Positions 1,465-24,564 of a stretch of 27,703 nucleotides of DNA are shown piece by piece. The first letter of the stretch is position 1. Each line of letters begins with the position of its first letter. A program made the translations under genes and the position numbers. The stretch is from a virus: the IMG/VR virus record IMGVR_UViG_3300008117_000335, positions 1-27,703 of that record. One strand, 5' to 3'. The notes beneath the pieces are model-generated. The model worked only from the letters and a program-made list of their open reading frames with translations, was not told the DNA's origin and searched no databases.

Positions 1465-2425
1465 TTTTAATATCTTCTTTGAAGTTTCTAACTGTGAATT
1501 TTTCTGTAAACTCTTCTACAAATTCTTGTGGAACTTCTTCTTGTGGCTGTGCCTGGAATGATTCACGATATTGTTCGTAATGACTTTGCTTGCTCATTGC
1601 CTTGATTTGTTCACGCAATTTGTTTAATTGCTCTGCTGATCTTTCTACAACATTATTAGTTTCTGAATTCATTAAGTCATTACGCACAACATAATTGCCA
1701 AAGCTCTTTAGTTGAGCAATTTCTTCACTCATGTTGATAATACTTTTGCCAAGATCGTCGTAAGGAACACCACCGTTGGCCACATGTCTCTGCATTGCAC
1801 GAGCGCCTGCTAGGTGAATGAACGGATACTTAAAACGTTCACCGTCTTGATTTTCCACAAACAGTCCAGAAATGTTTCTGCTTCTAGCACCGGGTGCTGC
1901 ATCATCCATAACTGCTTGACTGTGTTTGATAATTAGACGTGTATCCATTAACTTTTGATAACTAACGGTCTTTGATCCGTATAGTGCGCTTTCACTCATA
2001 ATGCTTTCTCCAACAGGTTTAACCACTGTGTTTGGTTGTTCTTTAGGTTGATTGTTTTGACTTAGAAATTCATAATCTCGTTGATCTAGATTATCTTTAG
2101 CAATATCTCTAGTGTCAAACGCCATTAGTCTACGCTTGGCAAACTGTCTTAACTCTTTTAAAAATCCGTACCAATTTGTTTTTTGATTGCCGTCCATTGA
2201 CTCTGTAATTCCTGTAGAGAAATATACCTTCAGTGAACTTTGTTCTGCTAGGCTAATACTAACATGTCCAATGGCTGTTTCACCTTCCATATAATCAAAA
2301 TCAAAGAAGCGAGCATCCTCGGGATTGATAGTGATAGCGCCGCTACTATCGCCTAATTTTAGGCCTTTGAAGCGGCTTCTAATTTTATAGAATAAATCGG
2401 TGGCTATATTGTTTGTTGCGTCCAT
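1427..2425 (-). CDS. T4-like virion protein, N-terminal part (conserved, unknown function)
   Basis: The 332-residue product begins MDATNNIATDLFYKIRSRF. The first half has FFDFDYMEGE, WYGFLKELRQFAKRRL and ARDIAKDNLDQRDYEFL-like segments. The second half has GARSRNISGLFVENQDGERF, KYPFIHLAGARAM and RHVANGG. I recognise this architecture as a conserved, uncharacterised virion protein of T4-like marine phages; I cannot give a T4 gene number. The start was moved from an upstream TTG at 2440 to the ATG at 2423-2425, because the late-promoter box TAAATA sits exactly 5 bases upstream and would lie inside the longer version. It starts just after the gp17 stop at 2437. It ends in FKEDIKNVFPVLYRPFRV, where a +1 change would lead into the next gene. 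Structural role inferred. Confidence 0.85.
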   Translation of the reverse strand: MDATNNIATDLFYKIRSRFKGLKLGDSSGAITINPEDARFFDFDYMEGETAIGHVSISLAEQSSLKVYFSTGITESMDGNQKTNWYGFLKELRQFAKRRLMAFDTRDIAKDNLDQRDYEFLSQNNQPKEQPNTVVKPVGESIMSESALYGSKTVSYQKLMDTRLIIKHSQAVMDDAAPGARSRNISGLFVENQDGERFKYPFIHLAGARAMQRHVANGGVPYDDLGKSIINMSEEIAQLKSFGNYVVRNDLMNSETNNVVERSAEQLNKLREQIKAMSKQSHYEQYRESFQAQPQEEVPQEFVEEFTEKFTVRNFKEDIKNVFPVLYRPFRV

Positions 2426-2438
2426 AGTTATATTTATC
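2426..2438 (-). promoter_or_regulatory. Late promoter box GATAAATA, 5 bases before ATG 2425
   Basis: TAAATA occupies 2431-2436 on the minus strand, followed by TAACT and then ATG. It matches the core of the T4 late promoter TATAAATA. With T4 spacing, transcription would begin at the A of ATG, giving a leaderless mRNA. It overlaps the gp17 stop codon region. Confidence 0.75.
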
Positions 2439-4023
2439 AAAAACCACTAGACACAAATATCGGCATTGGCATTTGATCTTCGGTTATTTTTTCTGTCATT
2501 TTTTCGTAGATCTTGGGATCCCAGTCTGATAATATGCCAGCCATTCTTATGATTAGTAGCATAGCACTTACTAGGTCGTCGTGTTCGCCTGTTTTTGCGC
2601 CAAATCCTACTCCGTGTGCTACGAACGTCTTTAATTCAGAAATTAAGGGTTTACTAGAAATTTTCATTTTTCCTGTTTCTAACATGTGTTTAACCTGGCT
2701 ACAAGCAGTGATTTTTGACTTGTGAGTAGTATTAAATCCTTTTCTGAATTTGCGTACATGACCCTTACGAATCGGCTCAGAAAGGAATAAACCTGGAAAA
2801 TTCTCTTCACCTATGTTATTGATCACAATTAGAGCAGCTTCACCTAGAGTGTTATTTTCCACCGAATAGTATAGCTGAGGAGCACTGCCTTTTTCCATAC
2901 CACGGTCTTGAATGTACTTGCATATTTCTCGTAGATGTTTAACCTGTGCTTGTATAGGAGTTAGATTATGTCGCCACTCTGCTACCTGTTCCATACTAGG
3001 CATTTCAAATACTTGAATAGCACCATAGTCTCCACCTGTGCCTAAGCTAGGATCTAACGACACTAGGTATGTTGCCCTAGGATCAATGTCTTTGTACCAG
3101 CGGGTTTGACCCATGGTCATTATAGGATCAATACCTTTCATTTCTGCAAGACGTACTGCGTTGATTAGCGTTTCGTCAAAAATCAAGAACTCGCAATCAA
3201 ACTCACGGCGGAAACGTTCTTCACCAATCTTACTACGCTCAGTTTGTGCCCATTTGTCATCGCGGTCTGGATGCTCTGCCCAATGTGCAAAGAACGAAGC
3301 AAATCCGTTTTGACCTAATTTTTGTTCGTTGCCAAACTCATCAAACTTCTTATTAGCTTCTGTCCAAATAAGCGCAAACTGATCTTCATCACTGTTTGGG
3401 GTTGATGTAATAATACACTTACCACCTGTTGATAATGTAGGTGATAGTGCAGTCCAGAACTCTTTGGCTTTTTCTGGTGGTTGCACAAACGCAAACTCGT
3501 CACAATAAATTAACGAAAGAGATTTACCACGACCTGTATTTTCTGTAGTAGTTGTTGCCTGTATACGTGCGCCATTATCATATTCAATGGTGTTTCTATT
3601 ATAACTGTGTACCCCAGCACGAATAAAGTCGGGCAAGTTTTCATAACCATATCGATAGCGGTTCATAATATCTTGCGCACCTTCATACTTGTGAGCAGCA
3701 ATTAACACCTGTGCTTCTGGAATAAACATTGTATACCATAATAGATAACCAGTAGCACACGTGGTCTTGCCCATCTGTCTAGGCAACATGGCAATACACT
3801 GTTTATTATTGTGATAAGATTCAATTAGACGTTCTTGATATTCATAGGGCTCAAAGGGAATTGAACCTCGAACAGGATGTTGAATTTTTAAAAAGTTTTT
3901 ACAAAAATACAATGGACCAGTTATAGGATCCATGCAGGCTTCAAGATGCTTGACTTCCTCTAGGGTATACCTTTGAGGAGCATGAGCTTTCTTAATTAAT
4001 ACGCCATCTAATGATTTTGACAT
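2437..4023 (-). CDS. 17: Terminase large subunit (gp17-like), packaging ATPase and nuclease
   Basis: This 528-residue DNA packaging motor carries all expected motifs. Walker A PRQMGKTT is at residues 81-88, Walker B LIYCDE at 171-176, and the coupling motif TSTP near 206-209. The C-terminal RNase H-fold nuclease has acidic residues SLDPS (D324), GGD (D332), YSVENN (E389) and GEHDD (D482/D483). T4 gp17 uses D401, E458 and D542 in equivalent places. It translocates DNA into the prohead through the portal and cuts the concatemer when the head is full. It is slightly shorter than T4 gp17 (610). It begins directly after a terminator and a late-promoter box with the ATG 5 bases downstream, and has no Shine-Dalgarno. 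The small subunit gene is nearby at 5572 but separated by two other genes. Confidence 0.97.
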   Translation of the reverse strand: MSKSLDGVLIKKAHAPQRYTLEEVKHLEACMDPITGPLYFCKNFLKIQHPVRGSIPFEPYEYQERLIESYHNNKQCIAMLPRQMGKTTCATGYLLWYTMFIPEAQVLIAAHKYEGAQDIMNRYRYGYENLPDFIRAGVHSYNRNTIEYDNGARIQATTTTENTGRGKSLSLIYCDEFAFVQPPEKAKEFWTALSPTLSTGGKCIITSTPNSDEDQFALIWTEANKKFDEFGNEQKLGQNGFASFFAHWAEHPDRDDKWAQTERSKIGEERFRREFDCEFLIFDETLINAVRLAEMKGIDPIMTMGQTRWYKDIDPRATYLVSLDPSLGTGGDYGAIQVFEMPSMEQVAEWRHNLTPIQAQVKHLREICKYIQDRGMEKGSAPQLYYSVENNTLGEAALIVINNIGEENFPGLFLSEPIRKGHVRKFRKGFNTTHKSKITACSQVKHMLETGKMKISSKPLISELKTFVAHGVGFGAKTGEHDDLVSAMLLIIRMAGILSDWDPKIYEKMTEKITEDQMPMPIFVSSGF

Positions 4024-4036
4024 AGTGTTATTTACA
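4024..4036 (-). promoter_or_regulatory. Late promoter box GTAAATA, 5 bases before gp17 ATG
   Basis: TAAATA is at 4029-4034 on the minus strand, followed by ACACT and ATG. It immediately follows the T-tract of the terminator at 4038-4066, so termination of the upstream operon and initiation of gp17 are only a few bases apart. A leaderless gp17 mRNA is predicted. Confidence 0.75.
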
Positions 4037-4037
4037 T

Positions 4038-4066
4038 AAAAAAAGCACCCCGAAGGATGCTTTTTG
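4038..4066 (-). terminator. Rho-independent terminator with UUCG tetraloop
   Basis: The minus strand reads AAAAAGCATCC-TTCG-GGGTGC followed by TTTTTTT. The loop is the exceptionally stable C(UUCG)G tetraloop. It lies 18 bases beyond the stop at 4084 and ends the gp54-like to unknown-305-aa operon. Since the A and T tracts flank the stem on both sides it could also work weakly on the other strand. Confidence 0.9.
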
Positions 4067-4083
4067 GTATTGCTGTAAACTAA

Positions 4084-5001
4084 TTATTTTTTCAAACGGC
4101 CGTCTTTTTCAGCAGACTTCAACATGGCTGCACGATCTGCATAGCTACCACGCTTGACATCTTTGGCAGCATCTTTTTCACCTTGTGTAGGATTCTTAAC
4201 ATGCTTTAAAGGGTCAAACTTAGCTTCTGCTAAACGAGCACGTAGTTCTTCTTTGATACTAGCACGTAGTTCTTCTTTGCTTTCGTAAGCGCCAGCAGCC
4301 ATAGGATTGTCGCCACGATATGGTTTACCGCTAAAACTTTTCTTTGGCTTGTTTAAGTCGTCGCCGTCTGGAATAGCAGCATCCATGCCGCGATATTCTT
4401 GATCTGGTGCGTCAGTAGGAGCATTACCAAATGCTTCTTCCTTGTCTTTCTTGCCATCTTTTTCGTCGTCTTTTTCCATGTCGTGATCGTCCATGTCATG
4501 ATCGCCGTCGCCGTCACGATCGCCCATAGACTTTTGAATAGAGTCAATGCCTTTATCGTCACGGTCTAGATCACCCATTGGAGGCATATTGTCTGCATCC
4601 ATGTCACTAGGACCACCCATGTTATCTGCATCAGGTTCACTGTGAGGTTCTTTTTTGTCTAAGTCAGGCAACATTTTTAATGGACCTGAATCTAGATTGC
4701 CTAGATCACCTATACCTGGCATTGGTGGTTTGATACTCATAATACTAGGTTCTGCACTAATTGGAGGCATCGCCATTGGTGCTGGTTGATTAATCATGTC
4801 TGGATTGACTTTGGTCATCAACTTCATTAATTCAGCAATGTTGTCCATGCCCTGTGCATTGAGGTTCACGCTCATGCTTGGAGGCGGCTCATCTGGTTTA
4901 GAAGGAATAGTTGGAGCAGGCATTCCCATAGGATCTCCGCAAGCTTCTACTGCTGGTTGGTCAAGCTCGCGCATTCTTTGCATTAATTCATTGAAATTCA
5001 T
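4084..5001 (-). CDS. Acidic, Met/Pro-rich conserved phage protein of unknown function
   Basis: The 305-residue product starts MNFNELMQRMRELDQPAVEACGDP. A VNLNAQGMDNIAELMKLMTKV segment follows near residues 45-65. A long low-complexity middle rich in Met, Pro, Asp and Glu contains a run of alternating Asp (DRDGDGDHDMDDHDM, around 160-180) that resembles tandem EF-hand-like DxDxDG loops. The C-terminus is basic (KSAEKDGRLKK) and includes DPLKHVKNPTQGEKDAAKD. I associate this organisation with uncharacterised proteins beside terminase genes in T4-like marine phages (memory, unverified). A good Shine-Dalgarno (AGGGAG) lies just before ATG and the upstream gene stops one base before it, so translation is probably coupled. 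A scaffold or internal head role is possible but unproven. Confidence 0.85.
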   Translation of the reverse strand: MNFNELMQRMRELDQPAVEACGDPMGMPAPTIPSKPDEPPPSMSVNLNAQGMDNIAELMKLMTKVNPDMINQPAPMAMPPISAEPSIMSIKPPMPGIGDLGNLDSGPLKMLPDLDKKEPHSEPDADNMGGPSDMDADNMPPMGDLDRDDKGIDSIQKSMGDRDGDGDHDMDDHDMEKDDEKDGKKDKEEAFGNAPTDAPDQEYRGMDAAIPDGDDLNKPKKSFSGKPYRGDNPMAAGAYESKEELRASIKEELRARLAEAKFDPLKHVKNPTQGEKDAAKDVKRGSYADRAAMLKSAEKDGRLKK

Positions 5002-5002
5002 A

Positions 5003-5563
5003 TTAACTCCCTAAGGCGCTTTTTACGCCTGTCTTATCAGTTTTGGCCTTAGGCAGTTTATACTCTGACTGACCGTTGTCTTTCTTTTGTTGTTTAGCAA
5101 CTTTGCTTAAATCTTTTAAGAAGCTCTTGTTAAAGTCATCTCCAAAGAAATCTTTGTGTTTGACATTAGCGGCTTCCTTATACTGACTGTCTGTTAATAA
5201 CCCGTCAGCGTTTAAAATTTCTGTTTCACCTTGATCAGTTTCGGAAGATTCGTTGCTGCCTCTTACTCTAAAACAAGTTTCATCTAAGCCCATGCTCTTG
5301 ATATCACTACTGATTTCAGGACCTGTAATTGGGTATTCGCAAGCAACTTCAAATACGTGAACTTCACAGTTCTTCATGGTTGGAAAATCCATGGGCACTG
5401 CCTGGATTGGTGTTGTACTGATTTTTTCCATTTTCATAACTTTACATCTTTCTAGAGATGTTTTCAAGTTTGATTGGAAATCTTCGGGCAAATCACCAGC
5501 AACTTTAATCTTAAAGCTGTATGATTTTTTACCCTCGGCAAGATATTCTTTGAAAGTTTTCAT
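5003..5563 (-). CDS. Conserved T4-like phage protein, unknown function
   Basis: The 186-residue product begins MKTFKEYLAEGKKSYSFKI. The short MKxFxEYLxE N-terminus resembles the leader-like ends of T4-group head or core proteins. A compact alpha/beta part follows (KVAGDLPEDF, PMDFPTMKNCEVHVFEVAC, near 20-95). The C-terminal half is Lys/Asp-rich and probably flexible (FFGDDFNKSFLKDLSKV, KLPKAKTDKTGVKSALGS). No catalytic motif was recognised. It is one of the genes with a late-promoter box exactly 5 bases before ATG, so it can be expressed independently of the upstream gp16 gene. It is followed with a one-base gap by the 305-aa acidic gene. A virion or packaging-associated role is inferred only from its place between gp16 and gp17. 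Confidence 0.85.
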   Translation of the reverse strand: MKTFKEYLAEGKKSYSFKIKVAGDLPEDFQSNLKTSLERCKVMKMEKISTTPIQAVPMDFPTMKNCEVHVFEVACEYPITGPEISSDIKSMGLDETCFRVRGSNESSETDQGETEILNADGLLTDSQYKEAANVKHKDFFGDDFNKSFLKDLSKVAKQQKKDNGQSEYKLPKAKTDKTGVKSALGS

Positions 5564-5576
5564 AGTAGTATTTATG
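5564..5576 (-). promoter_or_regulatory. Late promoter box ATAAATA, 5 bases before ATG 5563
   Basis: TAAATA is at 5569-5574 on the minus strand, followed by CTACT and ATG. It lies at the 3' end of the gp16-like gene, whose stop is at 5572. A leaderless transcript is predicted. Confidence 0.75.
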
Positions 5577-6054
5577 CTTTTCCGCTTAATTTTTTAATAA
5601 GATCGTTACGATCAGTTATTACGTAGCCAACACCGTTAAGAACATCATTTGGATCTTCGTTATTGTCTTTATCTATCTTGTACTTTTTAAGCTGTAGATC
5701 TACAGCCTTTAGTTTTTTTTCAATCTTATTGGTTTTTGCAGTAATTGCATGTCCAAGCATTGAACTTGCAACTTCAAAAATTCGACTGCTATATCGTACT
5801 TCTACATTCATACCCAGATCCATTAGATCGTCATAGGCTTGTTCGGCTTTTGAAGCTAGATTTTCTAACTCGTTATCATCTAGATCGTCAAGCTCTTTGA
5901 TCTGTGGCAGTCCGCGAGTAATTTCAGCTACCGCTTTGTAGCTATCGTCTAGGCTGCGTACTTCAGTATGGTCAACTTTTACTTCTGGAACAACTTCTTC
6001 CTTTGCAGGTTTTGATTCTTCCAAATTAAAAAGCTCTTCTAATTTTTTAGTCAT
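5572..6054 (-). CDS. 16: Terminase small subunit (gp16-like)
   Basis: This 160-residue protein is close to the length of T4 gp16 (164). It has an acidic, variable N-terminus and then a helical core. The core includes DNELENLASKAEQAYDDLMDLG, a segment SRIFEVASSMLGHAITAKTNK and LKAVDLQLKKYKID, the pattern I recognise as the conserved coiled core of gp16-family small terminases in T4-like phages. The family assembles a ring that recognises packaging DNA and regulates gp17. It lies seven bases after the gp4-like gene, and its mRNA leader shows no Shine-Dalgarno. A TAAGTA hexamer 4 bases before ATG resembles, but does not match, the late-promoter rule seen at neighbouring genes. Confidence 0.75.
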   Translation of the reverse strand: MTKKLEELFNLEESKPAKEEVVPEVKVDHTEVRSLDDSYKAVAEITRGLPQIKELDDLDDNELENLASKAEQAYDDLMDLGMNVEVRYSSRIFEVASSMLGHAITAKTNKIEKKLKAVDLQLKKYKIDKDNNEDPNDVLNGVGYVITDRNDLIKKLSGKA

Positions 6055-6061
6055 ACTTTAC

Positions 6062-6502
6062 TTATTTCCGTTTGGAGCCTTGGTGAAAAATATCACCTTC
6101 GTTTACGATTCTAAATCGAATACCTTGTTGTTTGCACCATGCTTGTGCAGCTTCCCATTTTGCCATATTCTTAACATACTGTTGTTGATTGTATTGACTC
6201 TTTCCTACATTTTCCAACCGTGTTTGACTCAATGGTTTTACTTCAATGACCTCTGCATGTTTTTTACCGTTCTTGTCTACGTATACAATAAAAAAATCAG
6301 GAACATATATTGTATATTTTCCTGTTAATGGATCTCTGTATGGAATCTGTATGCTTTCACTAGCCCAGCTCTGTACACCCTGATGTTCGTCTAACATCTT
6401 CATGAAAATAAACTCCCAACTGCTACGAGCCAGTGGTTGTTTCTTTCCTACATATTTGTCGGCATTCTTAACTTCGAAACGCCCTTGTGCAAATTTAGCC
6501 AT
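6062..6502 (-). CDS. 4: Head completion nuclease-like protein (gp4-like)
   Basis: The 146-residue product matches T4 gp4 (150) in size and order of motifs. After a basic N-terminus (KYVGKKQPLARSSWE) the RSSWE box gives E30. IPYRDPLTGK is followed by YVPDF (D69), then HAEVIEVKP with E87 and K89. These form the PD-(D/E)xK-type nuclease core also seen in TnsA-like enzymes. T4 gp4 acts late in head maturation, joining heads to tails after packaging. The ATG overlaps the stop of the upstream 121-aa gene (TAATG), which suggests translational coupling. No separate promoter is seen. Confidence 0.9.
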   Translation of the reverse strand: MAKFAQGRFEVKNADKYVGKKQPLARSSWEFIFMKMLDEHQGVQSWASESIQIPYRDPLTGKYTIYVPDFFIVYVDKNGKKHAEVIEVKPLSQTRLENVGKSQYNQQQYVKNMAKWEAAQAWCKQQGIRFRIVNEGDIFHQGSKRK

Positions 6503-6867
6503 TATGCAAAAATATTTCTAGTTTGATTTAGTTTTTCAAATATATCAACTCGATAGCCTAATGTGCTGGTAGATGATCTGTTATTGTTAAGTATTTCAGC
6601 AACAACGGCACTAATTTGAACTCCGTTGAATGTTTTTAATGTGTCAATGATTTTAAAAACAGGAGTACCGTCAACTTTTGCTTGTTTTAATAATACTTGA
6701 GCAGTTAGTGTTGCGGCATCGTCATCAAACCCTCTGCTTTGAAAAAAAGCAATTGCCGCAGTTACTTCATTGGCACTAAATTCTAAAGGCTGCTGACCAT
6801 ATTGATCAAAAAATAATTTTGTGCCGGCTGCACTATCTTGTTTTACTGGTATTGGTAAACTAGGCAT
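6502..6867 (-). CDS. Small conserved virion-region protein, unknown function
   Basis: The 121-residue product starts MPSLPIPVKQDSAAGTKLFFDQY. It has an AAIAFFQSRGFDDDAATLTAQVLLKQAK segment (about 40-65), then VFKIIDTLKTFNGVQISAVVAEILN and a final LGYRVDIFEKLNQTRNIFA. I recognise this as a small protein that recurs beside baseplate and head-completion genes of T4-like marine phages (unverified recollection); it has no assigned function. It is mostly helical and lacks membrane segments. Both ends are coupled by TAATG overlaps, with the tube-domain gene upstream and gp4 downstream. Its ATG has a Shine-Dalgarno (GGAGA) nine bases before it. Confidence 0.85.
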   Translation of the reverse strand: MPSLPIPVKQDSAAGTKLFFDQYGQQPLEFSANEVTAAIAFFQSRGFDDDAATLTAQVLLKQAKVDGTPVFKIIDTLKTFNGVQISAVVAEILNNNRSSTSTLGYRVDIFEKLNQTRNIFA

Positions 6868-7970
6868 TATAAAAATTCTCCAAGGTCTTGGACGGGAGGT
6901 ACTATTGATCGTTGTGTGGCTGGAGTATTGTCGATATTTCCAGAATTTTTAGGCAATACTAATCCTACTATTCCGCCAACACTACCTATAATTCCACTAA
7001 TCGCTGCCGGACTACTTAAAACATTAATAGCTTCGTTCCGTAAACTTGCACCAGATAGTTTTCCAATATTCTTTGCGGTGTTCACTGCTTTTATGGCTGT
7101 CCCTAAAAATCCACCCACACTGCCAAATGCTGATCCGCCTGCAACGTCCCCGAATATACCTTCTAAACCATCTAGTACTCCGCCTTCACCTAATAGATTT
7201 CCTACGCCGCCACCTGCTACAGTCAACGGGCTAGGTACATTATCATAATAAAGATTGGCAAAGCCTTTGGGTGTGTCACGTGAAACATTTCCAGAACCGT
7301 AAACAACCGATTCGTATTCTATATTCATTGACATCTCATTAAACTCATTTGCCGAATAACCAGCATCACCGTGCTGCCAACTTGTTATTTTTGGATTGAT
7401 TAGTTTATAACTTAAAAAACGTCTTCGACTCATAGTAAATATGGTAATAGAGTCAAAGAAGTCTACTGTTTTTCCTTGTCTGTCTAGGCTGTATCTAAAA
7501 CCTTCAAATGCTGTTCCTGATGCCTGTAGGTTAGTTTTTGAAAATGCAGCTTCTGGATTATGTCGATCCTGTACATATGATCCCATATACAATGCCCATA
7601 ACGCATTTATAACGCCAGCGGTATCGTCATGAAATTTCATGCTGATGCCTTCATAACTGAAGTTTTTATAAATTATGTGTTTTCTATTGTATTGATTTTT
7701 AGTGACTGTTTCAAATTTATACTTGGGTAGATCTGTACTTTTTATCAAATAGCCAATTTCATCAGCATGAGTGTTTGTAAATGTTGCAGATGTTAACACG
7801 CTCTTGTTAATTTCAAATTTCACATAGAACATGAACTTGCTACGAGGCATCATCCTGTAGCCGTTTTCTACAAACAATCTGCTAGCATGGCGCCAGCTGG
7901 CTAGGCCACCTTTAGGTGTTAGTAGGCCGTCTCCGACACCACCAAGAAATCTTGTGAATACATTTGACAT
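6867..7970 (-). CDS. Tail tube-domain protein (gp54/gp19-like, baseplate tube initiator candidate)
   Basis: The 367-residue product has a probable tail-tube fold in its first ~240 residues. Segments include RSKFMFYVKFEIN, IGYLIKSTDLPKYKFETVTKNQYNRK, ISMKFHDDTAGVINALW, SITIFTMSRRRFLSYKLINPKITSW and MSMNIEYESVVYGSG, the usual order of tube-type strands. The C-terminal third (about 250-350) is Gly/Ala/Val-rich and hydrophobic (GGGVGNLLGEGGVLDGL, SGIIGSVGGIVGLVLP). In T4, gp54 and gp48 initiate tube assembly on the baseplate, and their size fits (320 and 364). The identification as gp54-like rests on fold-like pattern and length, not on clear identity. It follows a terminator and a late-promoter box 5 bases before its ATG. 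Confidence 0.65.
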   Translation of the reverse strand: MSNVFTRFLGGVGDGLLTPKGGLASWRHASRLFVENGYRMMPRSKFMFYVKFEINKSVLTSATFTNTHADEIGYLIKSTDLPKYKFETVTKNQYNRKHIIYKNFSYEGISMKFHDDTAGVINALWALYMGSYVQDRHNPEAAFSKTNLQASGTAFEGFRYSLDRQGKTVDFFDSITIFTMSRRRFLSYKLINPKITSWQHGDAGYSANEFNEMSMNIEYESVVYGSGNVSRDTPKGFANLYYDNVPSPLTVAGGGVGNLLGEGGVLDGLEGIFGDVAGGSAFGSVGGFLGTAIKAVNTAKNIGKLSGASLRNEAINVLSSPAAISGIIGSVGGIVGLVLPKNSGNIDNTPATQRSIVPPVQDLGEFL

Positions 7971-7983
7971 ACAATTATTTAGT
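7971..7983 (-). promoter_or_regulatory. Late promoter box CTAAATA, 5 bases before ATG 7970
   Basis: TAAATA is at 7976-7981 on the minus strand, followed by ATTGT and ATG. It lies directly after the T-tract of the terminator at 7983-8018. A leaderless transcript is predicted. Confidence 0.75.
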
Positions 7984-8018
7984 CGTAAAAAAACCTGGAG
8001 TTTAATCCAGGTTTTTTA
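7983..8018 (-). terminator. Rho-independent terminator after tail tube gene
   Basis: On the minus strand AAAAAACCTGGA pairs with TCCAGGTTTTTT around a short AT-rich loop and ends in seven T. It begins about 15 bases beyond the tail tube stop at 8032 and closes the sheath-tube operon. Confidence 0.9.
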
Positions 8019-8031
8019 ATAGTTAAAACTA

Positions 8032-8664
8032 TTAACCGCGACCAGTTACTGATTCGCCAATAGTTCTTCCAACCAGTGCTCCGATACCACGCTCTGGGCC
8101 TGTACCGTTTGCACCTGCAAACTGAACAGCATTATCACACTTGATGGTTAGTGCTATAGACATTGGTTCGTTTGTTCCGTAGTTAGCTTCACCGTAGTTT
8201 ACTTCAGAAACAAAACAACCATAAATTTCCCATTTTTCAAGGATGTTTGGTTCCAATGTTCCGTTGCCACCATCTAACATTTCGATGTTCATTTGGAATT
8301 TATAATCAATACCAGAACGTGCAGAAGCCTGTTCCATGAAATCGTATTGTTTCTGGATCTGTTGTCCAACAATCTTTTGCACCTGTCCGTTAGCATCATC
8401 ACGAAGATTCAATGTAAAATCGCCCCACGATGGTTTACCAGCAAGTTTGACCTTTGAGTTGTAGATCTCAATTGTCATTTCTTCAAAAGTTACTGTTGGT
8501 CTAGTAACGTCAGAAACTTGTTTTGTTAATTCTGTACTAGCTTCAACACCAAAACCTAGCAATAGCACCCTAAAGCGATATTTTAGTTTTGGCATCAGCA
8601 GCGCAGTGCCGCTGTTGCCGTTTGAAGTAGGAACCGAAATTCTATTTAAGGAAGTTAGTGCCAT
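8032..8664 (-). CDS. 19: Tail tube protein (gp19-like)
   Basis: The 210-residue product is the likely subunit of the inner tail tube through which DNA passes. T4 gp19 has 163 residues. Characteristic pieces are the N-terminal YRFRVLLLGFG strand, a VSDVTRPTVTFEEMTIEIYNSKV segment, KPSWGDFTLNLRDDANG, the QQIQKQYDF helix and KWEIYGCFVSEVNYGEANYGTNEP near the end. It lies two bases after the sheath gene, has a strong Shine-Dalgarno (AGGAGA), and is followed by a terminator, so sheath and tube form one late operon. The extra length over T4 is at the ends (first ~25 and last ~20 residues, Gly-rich). Confidence 0.9.
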   Translation of the reverse strand: MALTSLNRISVPTSNGNSGTALLMPKLKYRFRVLLLGFGVEASTELTKQVSDVTRPTVTFEEMTIEIYNSKVKLAGKPSWGDFTLNLRDDANGQVQKIVGQQIQKQYDFMEQASARSGIDYKFQMNIEMLDGGNGTLEPNILEKWEIYGCFVSEVNYGEANYGTNEPMSIALTIKCDNAVQFAGANGTGPERGIGALVGRTIGESVTGRG

Positions 8665-8666
8665 TT

Positions 8667-11600
8667 TTAAATTTCTCCTGTATTCTTAATACGCAATGGA
8701 ATGTAAATAAATTCTACCGCTTTTACTGGCTCAATAGCAATATCTACCCATAGCTCGTTGCGATCGACTCTTGCATTTGTGTTATTAGACTCGTCGCAAA
8801 CTACTGCGAAGTCATATAGAGCACGTAAGCCTACCAACTCGATCAATAGACTCTCAACAGCGCCTTTAATCTCGTCTCGTGTAATCTTGTCATTTGGTTC
8901 AAAGATATAAGGACGAGCAAGTTTAGTCAACTGACTACGTAGATATACTGTTAAACGTGCTACGTTAATACGATCTAATGCTGATGCATTTCTTGCACGA
9001 GTCTTTTGACCGTACGCAACTAGACCAACTCCAACAAAGAATGGAATTGGATTAACTTTTAGATCATACAATGTATCGCGTTGACCTTCGTTCAATGCCA
9101 CTGACTGGAATTCACCAGTTGCTGCATCAATGTAGCCAACGCCTGTTGCATTGGTAATACCACCACGTCTTGTACCTGCTGGTGCAAACCATGGATAGCT
9201 AACTTGGTCGCTTAGAGCGATTGTACGCAACATCATGTGTGTTGCTGGAACAACTGCGTTAGCACCGCCCAAGTCTGTGGTAAATCCGTTTGGATACCAA
9301 ACTGCTGAATACTCGTCATAGCTAACAATACCTGTATCACCGTTGTCTAGTGCTCCGTTAGCATTAGTGCCCCAAGCTGTTAGGCTTGTTGCATCCGATG
9401 GTAATCGTAATGGTGTATCACCTAGAACAAACGCTGTCATGCCGCGATCTAAGTTCAAGTTGATCAAGTTGCTGTATGCTTCTGGATATCCAGGGCAAGC
9501 AATTAGGTTAAAGTTTCTACGCTCTTCGTCACGGATTTCTGAACTTGTATCGATAACGCTCTTTAGTTTTTGTACAACTAGAGCACGTTGAGCTTTACGA
9601 CCAAATGATCCTGAACCGTCTTCGTTATTTGGAGAAGCTGTAATCCAACGATCAGTTGCATAAGCACTTTGTCCGTCACCAATTACTGGACTATTGCCGG
9701 CATCGTTATAAAATGCTTCGTAGCGGACGTTCTTAGCTGCTGTATCGATGTAGCTGTTAGCATAACGTTTAACGTTGCCACCACTTCTACGTAGGTTCCA
9801 TAACAACATACCTTTTGGATATAGTGCTGGATCTGGACAGTCAAAGTCTACATAGTTACTGCTTAACAAGTCTTTAATCGTTGCTGCTGTATTACCGGTT
9901 GCACCACTTGCACCATAACGTGCATCGGCAAATAGAACACCGTCTTCTGTAGTTTGATCTGTTTTGTCAACGAAAACCCATTCTAAATTTAATCCATCAT
10001 AGCGATAGATAGTTGGAAAGTTTTCTAAATCTGCTGTACTAATCCAAAGATCGCCGTTGGCTAAATTACTGCCGCCACTTTGTTTTGTTGGCTCGCTGGC
10101 TGCAACAATAGGACCATTAACATCAGTTCCTGTATAAGGACTTGATGCATCTTTGTATCCAACCCAAATTTCGCCGTTGTGGACCATCATGTCAACTTGA
10201 TCAAACGCTGGGTTATACCACAATTGACCATCTTGTGGTTCTGCCAACGGAGTGGATGCTGTAGCATTATAATCGTCGGCAGCTAACGGAATCCAGTTAG
10301 TTGCTACAAAAGTTTCTGTTGCTCCAGTACCTACTGCATATAAATTTTGTGTACCGTCACCTGTGTCGATATCATATGCTGCAAATACACTAGTAATTGG
10401 ATTAAAGGTACCGTCTGTGAAGCGCATATCACCACCTTGTTTGTGATAAATTTGTACTTCGTTATCGGCAGTAACCGCAGCTTCAACATTTGTTAGTCCG
10501 GCTGCATTAATTTCAGTTGCTAGTGTTTCAGCATCAGTAGAATTTCCAAGAGCTGAGAAAGAAACAGTGACAGGAGCATATGCAGGAGTAGGCAATGCGC
10601 CATTTGATGTTCCTAATGTTACTCTACCTTTTAATGATTCTGCAATCGTAAACGTGTTTTGACCAACGCTAAATGTTCCGGAACCAATGACATCGGAAGT
10701 AATTACAGTATTTCCTGTAGTTGCTCTCTTCCATAGTCTAAAGGATGTAGTTTCTGGAGTAGCATCGATAGAAGAATTTTCAGTGCTATTACTTTGAACA
10801 AACAGGCTGTTTGCAGCGATTCCAACGCCTCCACCACTACGATCTAAGTAGTAAAGGGCTGCATGTGTGCTAGAATAGATAGGAGCTGAATATTCAACCC
10901 ATGTCTTAGTTGCTGCATTCCAACGCTTGACAATCCAACGAGCACCATAGTTAGGCTCAGTTGTTTTGATCCATACAGAACCTGTAGGGCGTGGCTTAGT
11001 GTTTGTTGATTTCCACTCCGGAACACTTGTGTGTGGAGTTTGTTGCAATGCTGGACTGAAATAAGTACCAATTGCTAGACCTAACTCAGTTAGTGCTGTT
11101 GCAGAATTTGTACCACCACCTGCAATAATAATAGCATCTGAATTTGTTGAATCATCAGATGCTGATAAATTACCGCTATCAGAATGCAAATATAATCTGT
11201 TATTGCTTACAACTGCTTGAACACCGTCTACTGCTAATGTAATATTGTTAGCTAATGTTGTAAGATTCGAAACAACAGTTATCAGTGTGCCGTTAATATA
11301 AAAAGTATTAGAAGGTGTTAATGTGCCAACAGTAGTTGCTCCGCTGACTGTAGGATGGCTTTGTGCCCAGTCGTTGCTACCAACTTCTACCCAGGTGTCG
11401 CCGCCTAACAATGTAGTGTTTCTCTTGTAATAAATTACAACTGGCTCTTTAAACAAGCTAAATCCAGCTTCGCCGGTATTGCCGATAGTTTGTGCAACCA
11501 CCGCATAATCACCAATGGAGCCTACTGAATCTTTTGGTTTCCGTGTGCCTGAATCAATTTTTACTGTATCGTCATCAGTTAATACCAATGGAGTTTTTAC

Positions 11601-12089
11601 TGCAAACTTCTGGCCGCCTGTTGTGGTAGCTGCTGCGCCATTCCACTCTTGGATACCCCAGGATGTTGCTCTTGTATCAAACCACCATGCGCCATCTGCT
11701 GGCTCTGCTCCCGGGGCGGTTGTTTGACCTTCAAGTTCGTCTAGATTGACATCAGCACGAACAATGAATGCTGCGTTAGATACACCCAAGAAGCTATATG
11801 CTGCTAGTAAACCATATTCGTTTCTTTCGCCACCATGTATAGGGCTCGAAGACGCTGTCTTCTCAAAGAAAGGAACACCGTAAGTGTCAACAAGTTCTCG
11901 TTGACTAGTGATCTTAAATGCTTTGCCGGTGTTAGCCGGTGTTGTTCCTGCGGCAGTACCTGTACCTGCTGCATTAGATTTGTTTTCTGCGGTTGCAATT
12001 ACAATAAGAGGAGTCGTACCAGGTTCTGCTGGTGTGTAAAAACTCTCATCAATTACTGTAACTTGTACGCCGGGTGATATTAGTGCCAT
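8667..12089 (-). CDS. 18: Contractile tail sheath protein (gp18-like), greatly enlarged
   Basis: At 1140 residues this is much longer than T4 gp18 (659). The N-terminus (MALISPGVQVTVIDES, and YSFLGVSNAAFIVRADVN near 105-115) and the C-terminal ~400 residues are sheath-like; the latter include FNLIACPGYPEAYSNLINL, RGGITNATGVGYIDAATGEF, ARNASALDRINVARLTVYL and VEFIYIPLRI. Between them (about 130-720) are repeated modules with a W(F/Y)(D/N) pattern: ADGAWWFDTRATSW, PTGSVWIKTTEPNYG, QDGQLWYNPAFDQ and ANGDLWISTADLENF. These probably form surface-exposed beta domains. It has a normal leader with AGGAGA and its own CTAAATA late-promoter box about 32 bases upstream. The tail tube gene follows at once. 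Confidence 0.95.
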   Translation of the reverse strand: MALISPGVQVTVIDESFYTPAEPGTTPLIVIATAENKSNAAGTGTAAGTTPANTGKAFKITSQRELVDTYGVPFFEKTASSSPIHGGERNEYGLLAAYSFLGVSNAAFIVRADVNLDELEGQTTAPGAEPADGAWWFDTRATSWGIQEWNGAAATTTGGQKFAVKTPLVLTDDDTVKIDSGTRKPKDSVGSIGDYAVVAQTIGNTGEAGFSLFKEPVVIYYKRNTTLLGGDTWVEVGSNDWAQSHPTVSGATTVGTLTPSNTFYINGTLITVVSNLTTLANNITLAVDGVQAVVSNNRLYLHSDSGNLSASDDSTNSDAIIIAGGGTNSATALTELGLAIGTYFSPALQQTPHTSVPEWKSTNTKPRPTGSVWIKTTEPNYGARWIVKRWNAATKTWVEYSAPIYSSTHAALYYLDRSGGGVGIAANSLFVQSNSTENSSIDATPETTSFRLWKRATTGNTVITSDVIGSGTFSVGQNTFTIAESLKGRVTLGTSNGALPTPAYAPVTVSFSALGNSTDAETLATEINAAGLTNVEAAVTADNEVQIYHKQGGDMRFTDGTFNPITSVFAAYDIDTGDGTQNLYAVGTGATETFVATNWIPLAADDYNATASTPLAEPQDGQLWYNPAFDQVDMMVHNGEIWVGYKDASSPYTGTDVNGPIVAASEPTKQSGGSNLANGDLWISTADLENFPTIYRYDGLNLEWVFVDKTDQTTEDGVLFADARYGASGATGNTAATIKDLLSSNYVDFDCPDPALYPKGMLLWNLRRSGGNVKRYANSYIDTAAKNVRYEAFYNDAGNSPVIGDGQSAYATDRWITASPNNEDGSGSFGRKAQRALVVQKLKSVIDTSSEIRDEERRNFNLIACPGYPEAYSNLINLNLDRGMTAFVLGDTPLRLPSDATSLTAWGTNANGALDNGDTGIVSYDEYSAVWYPNGFTTDLGGANAVVPATHMMLRTIALSDQVSYPWFAPAGTRRGGITNATGVGYIDAATGEFQSVALNEGQRDTLYDLKVNPIPFFVGVGLVAYGQKTRARNASALDRINVARLTVYLRSQLTKLARPYIFEPNDKITRDEIKGAVESLLIELVGLRALYDFAVVCDESNNTNARVDRNELWVDIAIEPVKAVEFIYIPLRIKNTGEI

Positions 12090-12120
12090 TCCCTATTCTC
12101 CTGGTAATAGTTGCTCATAT

Positions 12121-12127
12121 TATTTAG
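12121..12127 (-). promoter_or_regulatory. Late promoter box CTAAATA for tail sheath operon
   Basis: CTAAATA on the minus strand, with predicted start near 12115. This gives a leader of about 26 bases that includes AGGAGA. It differs from the leaderless-type boxes elsewhere in the window. The box overlaps one arm of an 8-bp inverted repeat. Confidence 0.65.
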
Positions 12128-12141
12128 CGGTATCCGCTAAA
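12123..12141. repeat. Perfect 8-bp inverted repeat overlapping the sheath promoter
   Basis: TTTAGCGG and CCGCTAAA are separated by TAT. One arm contains the CTAAAT part of the sheath late-promoter box. There is no T-tract on either side, so it is not a typical terminator. It could be an operator or an RNA hairpin in a read-through transcript. Confidence 0.5.
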
Positions 12142-12182
12142 ATTGGTACGTTATACCTAGAAGAAAAGGGGTTGAAAAGGTG

Positions 12183-12193
12183 TAAATAGATAT
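12183..12193 (+). promoter_or_regulatory. Late promoter box GTAAATA, 5 bases before ATG 12194
   Basis: TAAATA is at 12183-12188, followed by GATAT and ATG. It shares the spacing and the T before ATG with the minus-strand sites. An AAAAGG stretch further upstream is too far away to be a good Shine-Dalgarno. Confidence 0.65.
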
Positions 12194-12529
12194 ATGAGAC
12201 CACTTTGTAGGTGCGGACAACGACCCCGTGCTGTTAATTATAAAAAGAATGACAAGATTTACTATCGTAGTCTATGTGAAATCTGCATGTCGCACGGAGT
12301 TAATCATGGAATACCCCGCTGGGCTAGAGCAGGGTATAGGATAAAATCACAATGTGATAAATGCGGTTTTAAATCAATGCATTCTGAAGTTTTTAGAGTA
12401 TTTCACGTTGACGGTGATCTCAACAATTGTAGGCACAGCAATCTAAAAACTGTCTGTGTCAACTGTGCTACTGTGTTAGGCAAGGACGGAATAATGTGGC
12501 GGCAAGGGGATCTCGTCGCCGATTACTAG
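12194..12529 (+). CDS. Cys-rich HNH-like zinc protein
   Basis: The 111-residue product has CxC near residues 5-7 with CEICMSHG in the first third, then CDKCGF and CVNC pairs that can bind zinc. The segment VFHVDGDLNNCRHSNLKTVCVNC (about 70-92) follows the HNH nuclease pattern HxDGDxxN...NLxxxCxxC. The last histidine of a classical HNH core is replaced (CVNCAT), so nuclease activity is doubtful; a zinc-ribbon DNA-binding role is an alternative. I recall similar short proteins in T4-like marine phages. It runs against its neighbours and its 3' end overlaps the convergent dNMP kinase gene by 54 bases. A late-promoter box 5 bases before ATG suggests leaderless late expression. Confidence 0.8.
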   Translation: MRPLCRCGQRPRAVNYKKNDKIYYRSLCEICMSHGVNHGIPRWARAGYRIKSQCDKCGFKSMHSEVFRVFHVDGDLNNCRHSNLKTVCVNCATVLGKDGIMWRQGDLVADY

Positions 12530-13132
12530 GCCTTTTGATCGATCATATAATTCATCAATAGATCCGTTGTTATCTATAATTCCATCAAATTTACAACCAA
12601 TCCATGCCCACTCGCTGGCATGGATCTTTTTCATTTTCATAGAATTTAATCCAACGTTGTTGCCTTGATTTGCGCTAAGGGCGTCTTCATACCATGCGGG
12701 TAGATCACCTCGCTGCACCCAATAAATTTTTCCACCTGCTTTTTTAATAGCTTCAATTTCGTTAGGAAAACGACAATCACTAATTACCACATGATCTTTA
12801 CTATTGCGTATTTTGTTTTCTAAACTGGCAATCCAGATATCATCATGAAATGCTTTACGGCAAACTTCTGTACCCCAATATTGTAATACCCATCTAGGAG
12901 TTAATGTAGGCATGTCTAATCGTTCAGCCCACCAAGTATCAACTTGCTCTCGCCATTCGCGAGCTTCTTTAGTGCGCCCTTCTAACATGGTTCTGTCCCA
13001 GCCGAATACATGGGCAACAGCATCTTTTAGTGTTGATGCAAAACTTTCTCTTCTAAATTCGTGGAAGTTAACTAGATAGTCAGCGACTGTGTCCTTGCCG
13101 CTGCCAATAAATCCGCATATTCCTATAATCAT
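12476..13132 (-). CDS. 1: Deoxynucleoside monophosphate kinase (gp1-like)
   Basis: This 218-residue P-loop kinase has GFIGSGKDT at residues 7-15, the GSGKDT form typical of phage dNMP kinases. A DCRFPNEIEAIKKAGG segment near 120-135 is equivalent to the T4 gp1 DTRQDHEMDAARAMGA region. T4 gp1 phosphorylates dTMP, dGMP and hydroxymethyl-dCMP. Which nucleotides this enzyme accepts cannot be told, but a phage with modified bases would need it. It has a good Shine-Dalgarno (AGGAGAC) and a near-consensus sigma70 promoter, unlike all neighbouring genes. It is therefore an early-type gene set within a late region. The 3' end overlaps the convergent HNH-like gene. Confidence 0.9.
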   Translation of the reverse strand: MIIGICGFIGSGKDTVADYLVNFHEFRRESFASTLKDAVAHVFGWDRTMLEGRTKEAREWREQVDTWWAERLDMPTLTPRWVLQYWGTEVCRKAFHDDIWIASLENKIRNSKDHVVISDCRFPNEIEAIKKAGGKIYWVQRGDLPAWYEDALSANQGNNVGLNSMKMKKIHASEWAWIGCKFDGIIDNNGSIDELYDRSKGLVIGDEIPLPPHYSVLA

Positions 13133-13152
13133 AAATGTCTCCTATTAGATAC

Positions 13153-13181
13153 ATTATACTATAGAAAGTTTATAAGGTCAA
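13153..13181 (-). promoter_or_regulatory. Sigma70-type promoter for dNMP kinase
   Basis: On the minus strand TTGACC (13176-13181) and TATAAT (13153-13158) are separated by exactly 17 bases. This is nearly the perfect host housekeeping consensus. The predicted start near 13146 leaves a short leader with AGGAGAC before ATG at 13132. It indicates early expression by unmodified host RNA polymerase. Confidence 0.85.
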
Positions 13182-13187
13182 ATAAAT

Positions 13188-13946
13188 TTAACCAATTATG
13201 AATGTGTATCCGCTGCCACCTGATACTAGCGTTTCTAGTTCTTTAGTCAATCTTTCCAAATCAGCAGTTGCTTCTGATTTCATAGCAGCGCCGTTGAGAC
13301 TGCTGCCGCCTCCGGGTCCTGCAATTTGAGCAAATTTTTCACGTGCCTGTCCAAGCATCATTTTACAGTTGGCCAATGTATAGTCTTTGATCCATTGCCC
13401 TGCATAGGTATCTTCAATGATGGCAAAGTCGGGCTTAGTATTATAAACCTGTATCATGATTTCTTCAAATCCACGGGGACGCTGTAAGATTGTTAGTTTT
13501 CGACTCTGTGGATGCCAATTAAAACCAATAAATGATCCAAACATTTTGCCTACTAGTTCCTGATACTGACTAAACAATTCATAGGTTAGTAGGCCGCCCA
13601 TGTTTGTTGATGATAACAAATAGGTATTTGTATAGGCCAAGTTGAATGGTTCAAATACAGTGCCACCAGTACCATTGCCGGTTCTTGAGCCCACTGATCG
13701 TCTAAAAATCTGTCGTACCTGCTGAACTTCTTTTGGTAGAATATAGTCGTTTTGATTTTCTTGAAGTGTCAAAAACATATAGCTTTCTTCTACAGCATTA
13801 TCTGAACGTTGGCGGAAAACGCCTAGACTGCGGGTTAGGGCAGTTTCGTAGTGTATAGGATCTAGTTCTACATCAATCATGCCGTCGCCCAGCATGGTTT
13901 TACAGTAATCGTACACGCTTTGTTTGGATTGATCAATTTGGCTCAT
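13188..13946 (-). CDS. Neck / head-tail connector protein (gp13-like)
   Basis: The 252-residue product begins MSQIDQSKQSVYDYCKTMLG. Segments are GMIDVELDPIHYETALTRSLGVFRQRS (N-terminal helical region), NQNDYILPKEVQQVRQIFRR and LTYELFSQYQELVGKMFGS. These are followed by RGFEEIMIQVYN, YAGQWIKDYTLANCKMMLGQ and EKFAQIAGPGGGSSLNG, with a helical end and TFIIG. The combination of a YILP strand with a late LANCKMMLGQAREKF helix is that of T4-group gp13-type neck proteins, as I recall them. It seals the filled head and receives the tail. The start was placed at the ATG at 13944-13946, not at the longer frame, because the late-promoter box lies 5 bases upstream and the extension overlaps the divergent gene. 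Confidence 0.7.
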   Translation of the reverse strand: MSQIDQSKQSVYDYCKTMLGDGMIDVELDPIHYETALTRSLGVFRQRSDNAVEESYMFLTLQENQNDYILPKEVQQVRQIFRRSVGSRTGNGTGGTVFEPFNLAYTNTYLLSSTNMGGLLTYELFSQYQELVGKMFGSFIGFNWHPQSRKLTILQRPRGFEEIMIQVYNTKPDFAIIEDTYAGQWIKDYTLANCKMMLGQAREKFAQIAGPGGGSSLNGAAMKSEATADLERLTKELETLVSGGSGYTFIIG

Positions 13947-13959
13947 ACTGTTATTTATC
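13947..13959 (-). promoter_or_regulatory. Late promoter box GATAAATA, 5 bases before ATG 13946
   Basis: TAAATA is at 13952-13957 on the minus strand, followed by ACAGT and ATG. It is back-to-back with the rightward box at 13967-13972 inside a 33-base divergent intergenic region. Confidence 0.75.
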
Positions 13960-13966
13960 GTAGCGG

Positions 13967-13979
13967 TAAATATACTACT
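13967..13979 (+). promoter_or_regulatory. Late promoter box GTAAATA, 7 bases before ATG 13980
   Basis: TAAATA is at 13967-13972, then TACTACT and ATG. The spacing of 7 differs from the 5 seen at six other genes and would leave a leader of about two bases. No Shine-Dalgarno is present. Confidence 0.6.
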
Positions 13980-24145: not shown

Positions 24146-24535
24146 TTATAGGTCATTTATAGCATGATAGTAGCTAACGCTGAATATCAATCTTTTCGAT
24201 TCTGGACCAATTGGGGATGCAATTAACGTGACTTTTGAATCATTGACCGTTGCAGACAATGTAATCATATCATCCTGTAATGAAGTTCTGCCGTATATTG
24301 TAATACTAGCCGAAGACGGCCCAGCAACTACTAAACATTTGATAATTTCTTTATCAACAGATCCACCATCTACGCACATGGTGTATTCCGCAGACATAAA
24401 ATCGCCCACGTAGAATTCGTCAATAACTGTGTTAGGGAAAATTTCAACCCAGGGGCCTTTATAACTGAGATTAACTCCGTTGTTAAATCTCAGGGTGCCC
24501 TTGAGTCCGCGTAAAAAATATCTAGTAAAGTCCAT
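24146..24535 (-). CDS. Small conserved virion protein, unknown function
   Basis: The 129-residue product begins MDFTRYFLRGLKGTLRFNNGV. It is beta-rich with AEYTMCVDGGSVDKEIIKCLVVAG, SITIYGRTSLQ and a final RLIFSVSYYHAINDL. It resembles a single beta-sandwich domain protein that recurs next to large tail proteins in T4-like phages (recollection). No enzyme motif or signal peptide. It is the first gene of the leftward tail block, behind a CTAAATA late-promoter box with a predicted leader of about 17 bases. The next gene starts 9 bases past its stop. Confidence 0.8.
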   Translation of the reverse strand: MDFTRYFLRGLKGTLRFNNGVNLSYKGPWVEIFPNTVIDEFYVGDFMSAEYTMCVDGGSVDKEIIKCLVVAGPSSASITIYGRTSLQDDMITLSATVNDSKVTLIASPIGPESKRLIFSVSYYHAINDL

Positions 24536-24557
24536 ATCGATCCAATGGTGTATTGAG

Positions 24558-24564
24558 TATTTAG
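24558..24564 (-). promoter_or_regulatory. Late promoter box CTAAATA for tail block
   Basis: CTAAATA on the minus strand, predicted start near 24552 and ATG at 24535. It lies in the 65-base gap after the carbamoyltransferase stop. Leader type is conventional rather than leaderless; only a weak GGAT lies before ATG. Confidence 0.6.

Follow-up and report, generated by a model that had tools for sequence, protein, structure and literature searches.

In bacteriophage T4, late transcription is directed by an 8-bp box, TATAAATA, placed one turn upstream of +1 with its first T at −13 (passages of PMC2988020). Phage mRNAs without leaders have been described elsewhere: in the Thermus phage phiYS40, most of the middle and late transcripts lack a leader, and in infected cells IF2 goes up while IF3 goes down, according to the passage of a review (PMC3594737). 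Here, a 27,703-nucleotide (nt) stretch of viral DNA (IMG/VR record IMGVR_UViG_3300008117_000335, positions 1 to 27,703; hereafter the window, meaning this whole stretch) is compared with these systems. The window is a fragment of an uncultured, T4-related jumbo myovirus, and in it the hexamer TAAATA, the core of the T4 late box, stands directly before the start codons of several genes. Very probably, these sites are late promoters of the T4 type joined directly to start codons; the mRNAs made from them would have no leader, or almost none, and would exist beside a class of leadered ones. The TAAATA box would be the promoter core read by the host RNA polymerase together with a phage sigma factor of the gp55 family, and transcription would start at the A of the ATG when five bases lie between box and ATG (spacing 5), or no more than about three bases away from that A at spacings 4 and 6–8. 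The resulting mRNAs would be translated by 5′-AUG recognition and not by Shine-Dalgarno (SD) pairing. A second, leadered set of genes would carry TAAATA 16 or more bases upstream, often with an SD motif, and genes would switch between the two states over evolution.

An initial annotation of the window had proposed leaderless late mRNAs from TAAATA placed exactly five bases before the ATG at six genes, with a T just before each ATG, and a seventh box at spacing 7. All six places (starts at 2425, 4023, 5563, 7970 and 13946 on the minus strand and at 12194 on the plus strand) are exact, including the T, and the spacing of 7 before the start at 13980 was also borne out. The genes concerned encode the large terminase subunit, three virion structural proteins, a tail tube-like protein, the head-tail adaptor Ad2 and one protein of unknown function. 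The relevant features are as follows.

2426–2436, minus strand: TAAATA (box 2431–2436) plus 5-nt spacer abutting the ATG at 2425 of gene 1427–2425
1427–2425, minus strand: virion structural protein gene (PHROG 13484), predicted leaderless
4024–4034, minus strand: TAAATA (box 4029–4034) plus spacer abutting the ATG at 4023 of the terminase large subunit gene
2437–4023, minus strand: terminase large subunit gene, predicted leaderless
4035–4064, minus strand: intrinsic terminator whose T tract ends 3 nt before the terminase box (folding −12.4 kcal/mol, z −5.6)
5564–5574, minus strand: TAAATA (box 5569–5574) plus spacer abutting the ATG at 5563
5003–5563, minus strand: virion structural protein gene (PHROG 14802, E 3e-6), predicted leaderless
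7971–7981, minus strand: TAAATA (box 7976–7981) plus spacer abutting the ATG at 7970 of the tail tube-like gene
6867–7970, minus strand: tail tube-like protein gene (PHROG 4542, E 2e-9), predicted leaderless
7984–8013, minus strand: intrinsic terminator whose T tract ends 5 nt before the tail tube-like box (folding −10.8 kcal/mol, z −4.1)
12183–12193, plus strand: TAAATA (box 12183–12188) plus spacer abutting the ATG at 12194
12194–12529, plus strand: gene for a 111-amino-acid protein with CxxC-type cysteines and no family match, predicted leaderless
13947–13957, minus strand: TAAATA (box 13952–13957) plus spacer abutting the ATG at 13946 of the Ad2 gene
13188–13946, minus strand: head-tail adaptor Ad2 gene (PHROG 211), predicted leaderless
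13967–13979, plus strand: TAAATA (box 13967–13972) plus 7-nt spacer before the ATG at 13980, back to back with the 13946 box
13980–15245, plus strand: virion structural protein gene (PHROG 11591), predicted nearly leaderless (0–3 nt)
12090–12126, minus strand: leadered contrast, TAAATA (box 12121–12126) 31 nt before the sheath ATG, with an AGGAG motif
24536–24563, minus strand: contrast with leadered spacing, TAAATA (box 24558–24563) 22 nt before the ATG at 24535

TAAATA is scarce in the window, with 15 occurrences against 35.5 expected; six of them stand at spacing 5, one at 7, two at the leadered spacings of 31 and 22, and six within genes. The six TAAATA-N5-ATG sites compare with 0.84 expected, and 100 dinucleotide shuffles of the window never reached six (maximum 4). 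Sigma-70-like sites show no such excess in the window (38 versus 41.9 in shuffles). Furthermore, the two T tracts that end 3 and 5 nt before the boxes of the terminase and tail tube-like genes, and the 33 bp between the ATGs of the divergent starts 13946 (minus) and 13980 (plus), leave little room for leaders. The arrangement of terminator and box before the terminase is visible in most of the 80 relatives listed. Both terminators were detected by folding and were not listed by a pattern scanner, probably because their T tails were absorbed into the stem.

Orthologous starts keep the spacing. A terminase search of IMG/VR gave a first set of relatives, the best 80 of 594 loci, in which orthologous starts were picked through protein alignment and near-identical loci are frequent. 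Among these 80 contigs, the five-base spacing is kept at the six sites in 327 of 345 orthologues. Gene by gene, spacing 5 is found in 76 of 79 orthologues of gene 2425 (spacing 4 in the other 3), in 69 of 80 terminase genes (4 in seven, 6 in one, box absent in three), in all 68 orthologues of gene 5563, in 57 of 59 tail tube-like genes (4 in two), in 37 of 38 orthologues of gene 12194 (one without box) and in 20 of 21 Ad2 genes (4 in one); spacing 7 of gene 13980 is kept in 11 of 11 (4 distinct). The numbers of distinct upstream sequences behind these counts are 28 for 2425, 21 for the terminase, 26 for 5563, 22 for the tail tube, 24 for 12194 and 9 for Ad2. The spacers differ widely despite their fixed length, with 11–28 variants per gene among the distinct spacing-5 starts. 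Seven other genes examined in the same 80 loci have no box at 4–8. The sheath orthologues all have it at 31–36 (38 of 38), and those of gene 8664 have it at 19–22 in 24 of 58.

A second set, obtained with the terminase of Pseudomonas phage PA5oct as query, added 80 more distant loci, bringing the total to 160 contigs. Over both sets, 14 genes gave 1184 starts, of which 712 are distinct. An earlier class comparison had selected starts with the box in view, so the figures given here are from this later count, in which starts were picked blind to the box. The box lies at 4–8 in 283 of the 712 distinct starts (spacing 4 in 20, 5 in 199, 6 in 15, 7 in 40 and 8 in 9), at 9–15 in none and at 16–39 in 135; four have spacing 0, and 290 have no box within 45 nt. 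A putative promoter element no more than a few bases from the start is therefore found at 283 of 712 starts, and such starts form one class among the putative late genes, with leadered TAAATA sites in the same phages. The gap at 9–15 would fit leaders of about 4–10 nt being too short for an SD sequence and too long for a leaderless start.

The two classes are also seen genome-wide. In four long relatives (G001, G002, G003 and G009; records of 270–364 kb), genes were called by a simple script of our own in which every in-frame ATG in the first part of a gene was tested, so that absolute numbers are approximate. Called genes with the box at 4–8, 9–14 and 15–32 number 28/1/30 in G001, 19/1/37 in G002, 16/1/25 in G003 and 24/2/57 in G009, or 87/5/149 pooled. 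Twelve permuted hexamers, those without a five-base overlap with the box, give 5–26/6–18/29–75 pooled. At 4–8, fourteen permuted hexamers average 0.4 to 4.8 genes per genome, and their maximum in the four relatives is 10–19; the highest pooled values are ATAAAT 56, AAATAT 36 and ATAATA 26 against 87 for TAAATA, the first two overlapping the box by five bases. With 87 genes at 4–8 in four relatives, the short spacing is commoner than chance on the genome scale as well. The exact pattern TAAATANNNNTATG occurs 13 times in a 353-kb relative and its reversed control not at all; it was matched in all of eight related records, the weakest being 5 versus 3 controls (G005) and 9 versus 3 (G002).

Other phages differ. 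The window terminase is 54% identical to those of PA5oct and its kin, the best-ranked of 2544 matching phage records, and the same isolates come out on top, likewise at 54%, when a G009-type terminase is the query; the terminases of G001–G003 are 88–94% identical to that of the window, and that of G009 is 57% identical. Counts at 4–8/9–14/15–32 are 2/3/34 in PA5oct, 0/8/24 in T4, 0/0/21 in Syn9, 0/1/18 in KVP40 (covered over 220 kb), 0/4/30 in GAP32 and 3/2/40 in Atu_ph07 (covered over 400 kb). No called gene in T4, Syn9, GAP32 or the 220 kb of KVP40 has a box at 4–8. TAAATANNNNTATG is not clearly enriched over its reversed control in PA5oct (6/7), T4 (3/2), Phosso (2/1), Atu_ph07 (7/3), GAP32 (1/2), Syn9 (1/2) or KVP40 (2/2). 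The two PA5oct genes with a spacing-5 box are at background level (2 versus a mean of 3.5). One of them, gp262 (144985), carries a structural annotation and the note ESI-MS/MS; its orthologue belongs to the short class in G009 (spacing 4) and is leadered in G001–G003.

Several properties of the box argue for a late promoter. With the first T of the T4 box at −13 (passages of PMC2988020), +1 would be the sixth base after the box; at spacing 5 this is the A of the ATG, where the initial annotation had also placed it. In the leadered class, this sixth position holds an A in 68% and a G in 8%. At spacing 5, a T or C precedes the ATG in 196 of 199 distinct starts and, genome-wide, in 37 of 38 genes; among boxless starts the figure is 177 of 290. 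Transcription initiators favour a pyrimidine at −1 and a purine at +1, which T or C before the ATG suits. Furthermore, the word is purged from coding sequence. Scored as observed minus expected over the root of expected, against synonymous-codon shuffles, TAAATA/TATTTA is the most depleted in-gene hexamer in G001 (89 versus 232 expected; rank 1 of 1935), G002 (39 versus 251; 1 of 1934) and G003 (71 versus 277; 1 of 1785). Its rank is 5 of 1974 in G009, 6 of 1757 in Atu_ph07, 18 of 1676 in KVP40, 32 of 1107 in T4, 134 of 1368 in PA5oct and 137 of 1439 in Syn9. Both strands are affected (in G002, 25 versus 130 sense and 14 versus 125 antisense), and the control words ATAAAT and TATAAT are less depleted. 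A minimal promoter core would be expected to behave in this way, purged from both gene strands and retained where genes start. GAP32 avoids in-gene TAAATA equally (66 versus 271, rank 1 of 1575) and yet has no short-spacing genes, so that the six-base late box seems more widespread than the leaderless class.

A sigma factor that could read the box is encoded by the relatives. A gp55-family late sigma was found in seven of seven genomes (G001, G002, G003, PA5oct, Phosso, Atu_ph07 and GAP32), and in three of six further records, one with an internal stop. All four long relatives, G001–G003 and G009, have it, with E values of 1e-79 to 7e-83, and in G001 it lies at 203609–204382; it was not seen in the window, itself a fragment. 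T4's full 8-bp TATAAATA is not kept, with 11–15 copies per genome against 144–229 of TAAATA in G001–G003. The full box is not universal in T4 relatives either: Aeh1 deviates at −13/−12, according to passages of PMC2988020. As in a T4-type promoter, the TAAATA core stands at the presumed −10 position, on the strand of the gene and before structural genes. Late timing is suggested by the identity of these genes and by gp55.

The predicted leaderless genes would need little SD pairing. The initial annotation held that genes with the box lack an SD sequence and genes without it have one, and this mostly stands. The genes at 8664, 6867, 12089, 13132, 26412 and 5001 do carry GGAG, AGGAG or AAGGA. 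The boxless genes 5572–6054 and 6062–6502 have no clear motif, and the box genes 5563 and 12194 are purine-rich upstream, so absence of an SD sequence is an imperfect marker. Over the 712 distinct starts, median SD pairing energies are −0.2 kcal/mol for short-class, −4.9 for long-class and −3.2 for boxless starts, and an energy of −5 or better is reached by 15 of 283, 61 of 135 and 96 of 290, respectively. Within orthologue groups, SD pairing is weaker in the short state than in the remaining states combined at 2425 (p 0.008), the terminase (2e-6), 5563 (0.004) and the tail tube (5e-8). Short-class genes are slightly less structured in their first 40 nt (−2.22 versus −2.91 kcal/mol, p 0.005) and slightly richer in A in codons 2–6 (0.451 versus 0.416, p 0.012).

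The same orthologue can be found in both states, for instance gene 2425 (72 distinct starts short, 12 long) and gene 5563 (41 and 28). On a FastTree terminase tree with 164 rows, the minimum number of state changes is 7 for 2425, 14 for the terminase, 1 for 5563, 3 for the tail tube, 3 for 12194 and 9 for gene 5572. In PA5oct, Phosso and Atu_ph07, the orthologues of 5563 and 8664 have TAAATA further upstream, followed by a purine-rich leader, and so do the Ad2 orthologue of PA5oct and the 2425 orthologues of Phosso and GAP32; the terminase orthologues of PA5oct, Phosso, Atu_ph07 and GAP32 have no box near the start. The simplest story would be that in this group the box moved to the start codon, or the leader was lost there, with later reversals. 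In L036, a close relative whose terminase is about 90% identical, the terminase start (10001) has lost its box, and a purine-rich aaggattgacccc stretch stands in its place.

Outside the window, the short class is mixed in function. In G001, 20 of the 28 members were scanned in PHROGs (four crossing piece boundaries and four orthologues of window genes were omitted): ten have no family, five have only families of unknown function, and those with a named family include a peptidase, a tail-fibre-like protein, a metallophosphoesterase-like protein and, in the orthologue of 2425, a virion structural protein. Ten of the 24 in G009 were scanned, giving an ATP-dependent protease, a virion structural protein, a deoxyribonucleotidase, an acetyltransferase and six without family or known function.

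The leaderless proposal of the initial annotation withstood the tests made here that could have spoken against it, and gains support from spacing above chance, its retention at orthologues, the two classes, in-gene avoidance and gp55; from these we infer the leaderless state itself, together with promoter activity, the exact +1 and the mode of translation. Several observations weigh against it. Spacings 4, 6, 7 and 8 are present, so that some leaders may be 1–3 nt long, and spacing-4 genes have a pyrimidine before the ATG in only 14 of 24, with no clear preference. SD energy fails to separate the states at 12194 (p 0.71), 5572 (0.43) and Ad2 (0.11); the short starts of gene 5003–5563 have a median of −3.5 kcal/mol, and the boxless terminase starts just −0.2. 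Orthologue counts are not independent, and gene 5003–5563 switched state just once on the terminase tree. Many class members outside the window are of no known function and some are not structural. Models of gp33 and gp45 (PF16805 and phrog_223) found nothing in seven genomes each, in a search without any positive control. Finally, TGCA words exceed TAAATA in depletion ratio in G002 and G003, and depletion alone therefore does not mean a promoter.

Among other explanations, the nearest is that transcription starts within the spacer between box and ATG, giving leaders of 1–4 nt without an SD sequence, so that the mRNAs are not strictly leaderless. It overlaps the 0–3 nt of the preferred reading and is rather unlikely as a separate one. 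Spacings 6–8 are common at some genes (15, 40 and 9 of the 283 short starts), and polymerases can initiate a base or two off; the dominance of spacing 5 (199 of 283) and the T or C before the A of the ATG in 196 of these 199 point the other way. A second possibility, to which we give a low probability, is that the late promoters are real and the protein comes mainly from read-through or polycistronic mRNAs, the leaderless product being minor or non-coding. Coupled translation is possible at 5563 and 2425, which lie only 8 and 11 bp after the preceding gene, and 3 of 80 terminase orthologues do without the box. Terminators precede the boxes at 4023 and 7970, though, the divergent pair 13946/13980 cannot be served from one strand, and an exact spacing to the ATG would not persist if the start were irrelevant.

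That TAAATA-N5-ATG is a translation-initiation or mRNA-processing signal and no promoter is very improbable: it does sit at starts with weak SD pairing, and yet the same box is also found 16–39 nt ahead of other starts, where an SD leader often follows it, it is avoided on both gene strands, gp55 is present, and TATAAATA is the T4 late promoter (passages of PMC2988020). Coincidence of AT-rich intergenic DNA with TAA stop codons has next to no probability left. In its favour, the TAA of the 5563 box doubles as the stop codon of the preceding gene, 5572–6054. Shuffles, reversed patterns and permuted hexamers rule out chance and composition, conservation speaks against coincidence as well, and overlap with stop codons is ruled out as the cause because the same spacing is found behind terminators.

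If T4-type late promoters are indeed fused to start codons here, a further idea, tentative and on balance doubtful, is that two parallel late programmes run from one sigma factor, one leaderless (among others terminase, tail tube, neck) and one SD-led (for example the sheath), with box position setting leader length and with ribosomes altered late, possibly by a phage bS21, to favour 5′-AUG messages over those of the host. Genes for ribosomal protein bS21 were seen in two of six related records (G001 33352–33510, plus strand; G002 292290–292445, minus strand; G009 was outside those six), which does not show bS21 to be general, and the C-terminal domain of IF3 was found in none of six records, a partly different set. 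For other phages with bS21, substitution in ribosomes at a late stage has been proposed (PMC9723584, the main text of which does not use the word leaderless). A link between such substitution and the leaderless class here is speculation.

Some further observations concern the window and its relatives. Divergent late-gene pairs with back-to-back boxes occur in the window (13944–13982, 33 bp) and in G001 (261111, minus, and 261136, plus; 24 bp), and two polymerases could hardly occupy so short a promoter region together. The structural protein of gene 1427–2425 is very variable in length, with 332 amino acids in the window and 655 in G001 (272684–274651). The short class of G001 includes an iron/manganese superoxide dismutase (L094 1665–2225, that is, G001 101665–102225; Pfam Sod_Fe_C, 1e-22, no PHROG match). 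In G002 and G003, TGCA words are strongly depleted (for TGCAAA in G002, 10 versus 183 expected); in G001 and G009 the same holds for AGCT words, a scarcity that looks as if restriction-type sites were being avoided. The window also contains a carbamoyltransferase gene (Pfam) at 24601–26412.

These giant phages from the environment are a large T4-related family and would form a widespread uncultured sister group, with the textbook T4 late core joined to the ATG of about 16 to 28 genes in each genome. The group offers natural experiments on the leader length needed for a working SD sequence, on how genes pass from one mode to the other and on whether host ribosomes can be biased by a phage toward leaderless messages, and it gives a simple rule for annotating start codons in these genomes.

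Compared with T4, the phages described here share the TAAATA core, a gp55-family sigma (in the relatives) and structural genes on either strand, and differ in that the T4 box peaks 21–30 nt before the start, a distance that accommodates a leader, with none of 192 called genes at 4–8, and that the TA leading TAAATA in TATAAATA is mostly absent here, where a fused leaderless class is present. The jumbo phages CBB and GAP32 likewise have a late-promoter-like motif, ATAAATA, before structural genes (passages of PMC5259590); unlike the present group, GAP32 has no called gene with TAAATA at 4–8, and the main text of the CBB paper does not use the word leaderless (PMC5259590). In phiKZ, also a jumbo phage, late transcription starts inside a T-A-T-G motif, but by the phage's own multisubunit polymerase and with +1 at G, not by a gp55 system (passages of PMC7598289). 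The bacterial TA-led leaderless genes, including those of Deinococcus-Thermus, resemble the present sites in having a −10 element about 10–12 bp before the start (parts of PMC3160421 and PMC12340547); these are cellular genes with a sigma-70-like −10 box (TANNNT), while here the box is putatively that of a phage late sigma. The statement in the initial annotation that no systematic leaderless class was known proved too strong in general, since phiYS40 has one (passage of PMC3594737) and a paper on AR9 calls phage transcripts often leaderless (part of PMC5312081). PhiYS40 is another phage in another host, and no gp55 or TAAATA is described in the review passage (PMC3594737). For a T4-type late system, no report of a leaderless class was found in the open-access literature searched, most subscription papers lying outside the search; PMC7403470 has the word leaderless only in a reference. 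Leaderless phage mRNAs (phiYS40), start-adjacent bacterial promoters and the ATAAATA late motif of jumbo phages were already known, at least from the parts of these sources cited above. What appears to be new, judging from the genomes, is a fused, predicted leaderless class within a T4-type late system, which as a class is absent from the other T4-type phages examined.

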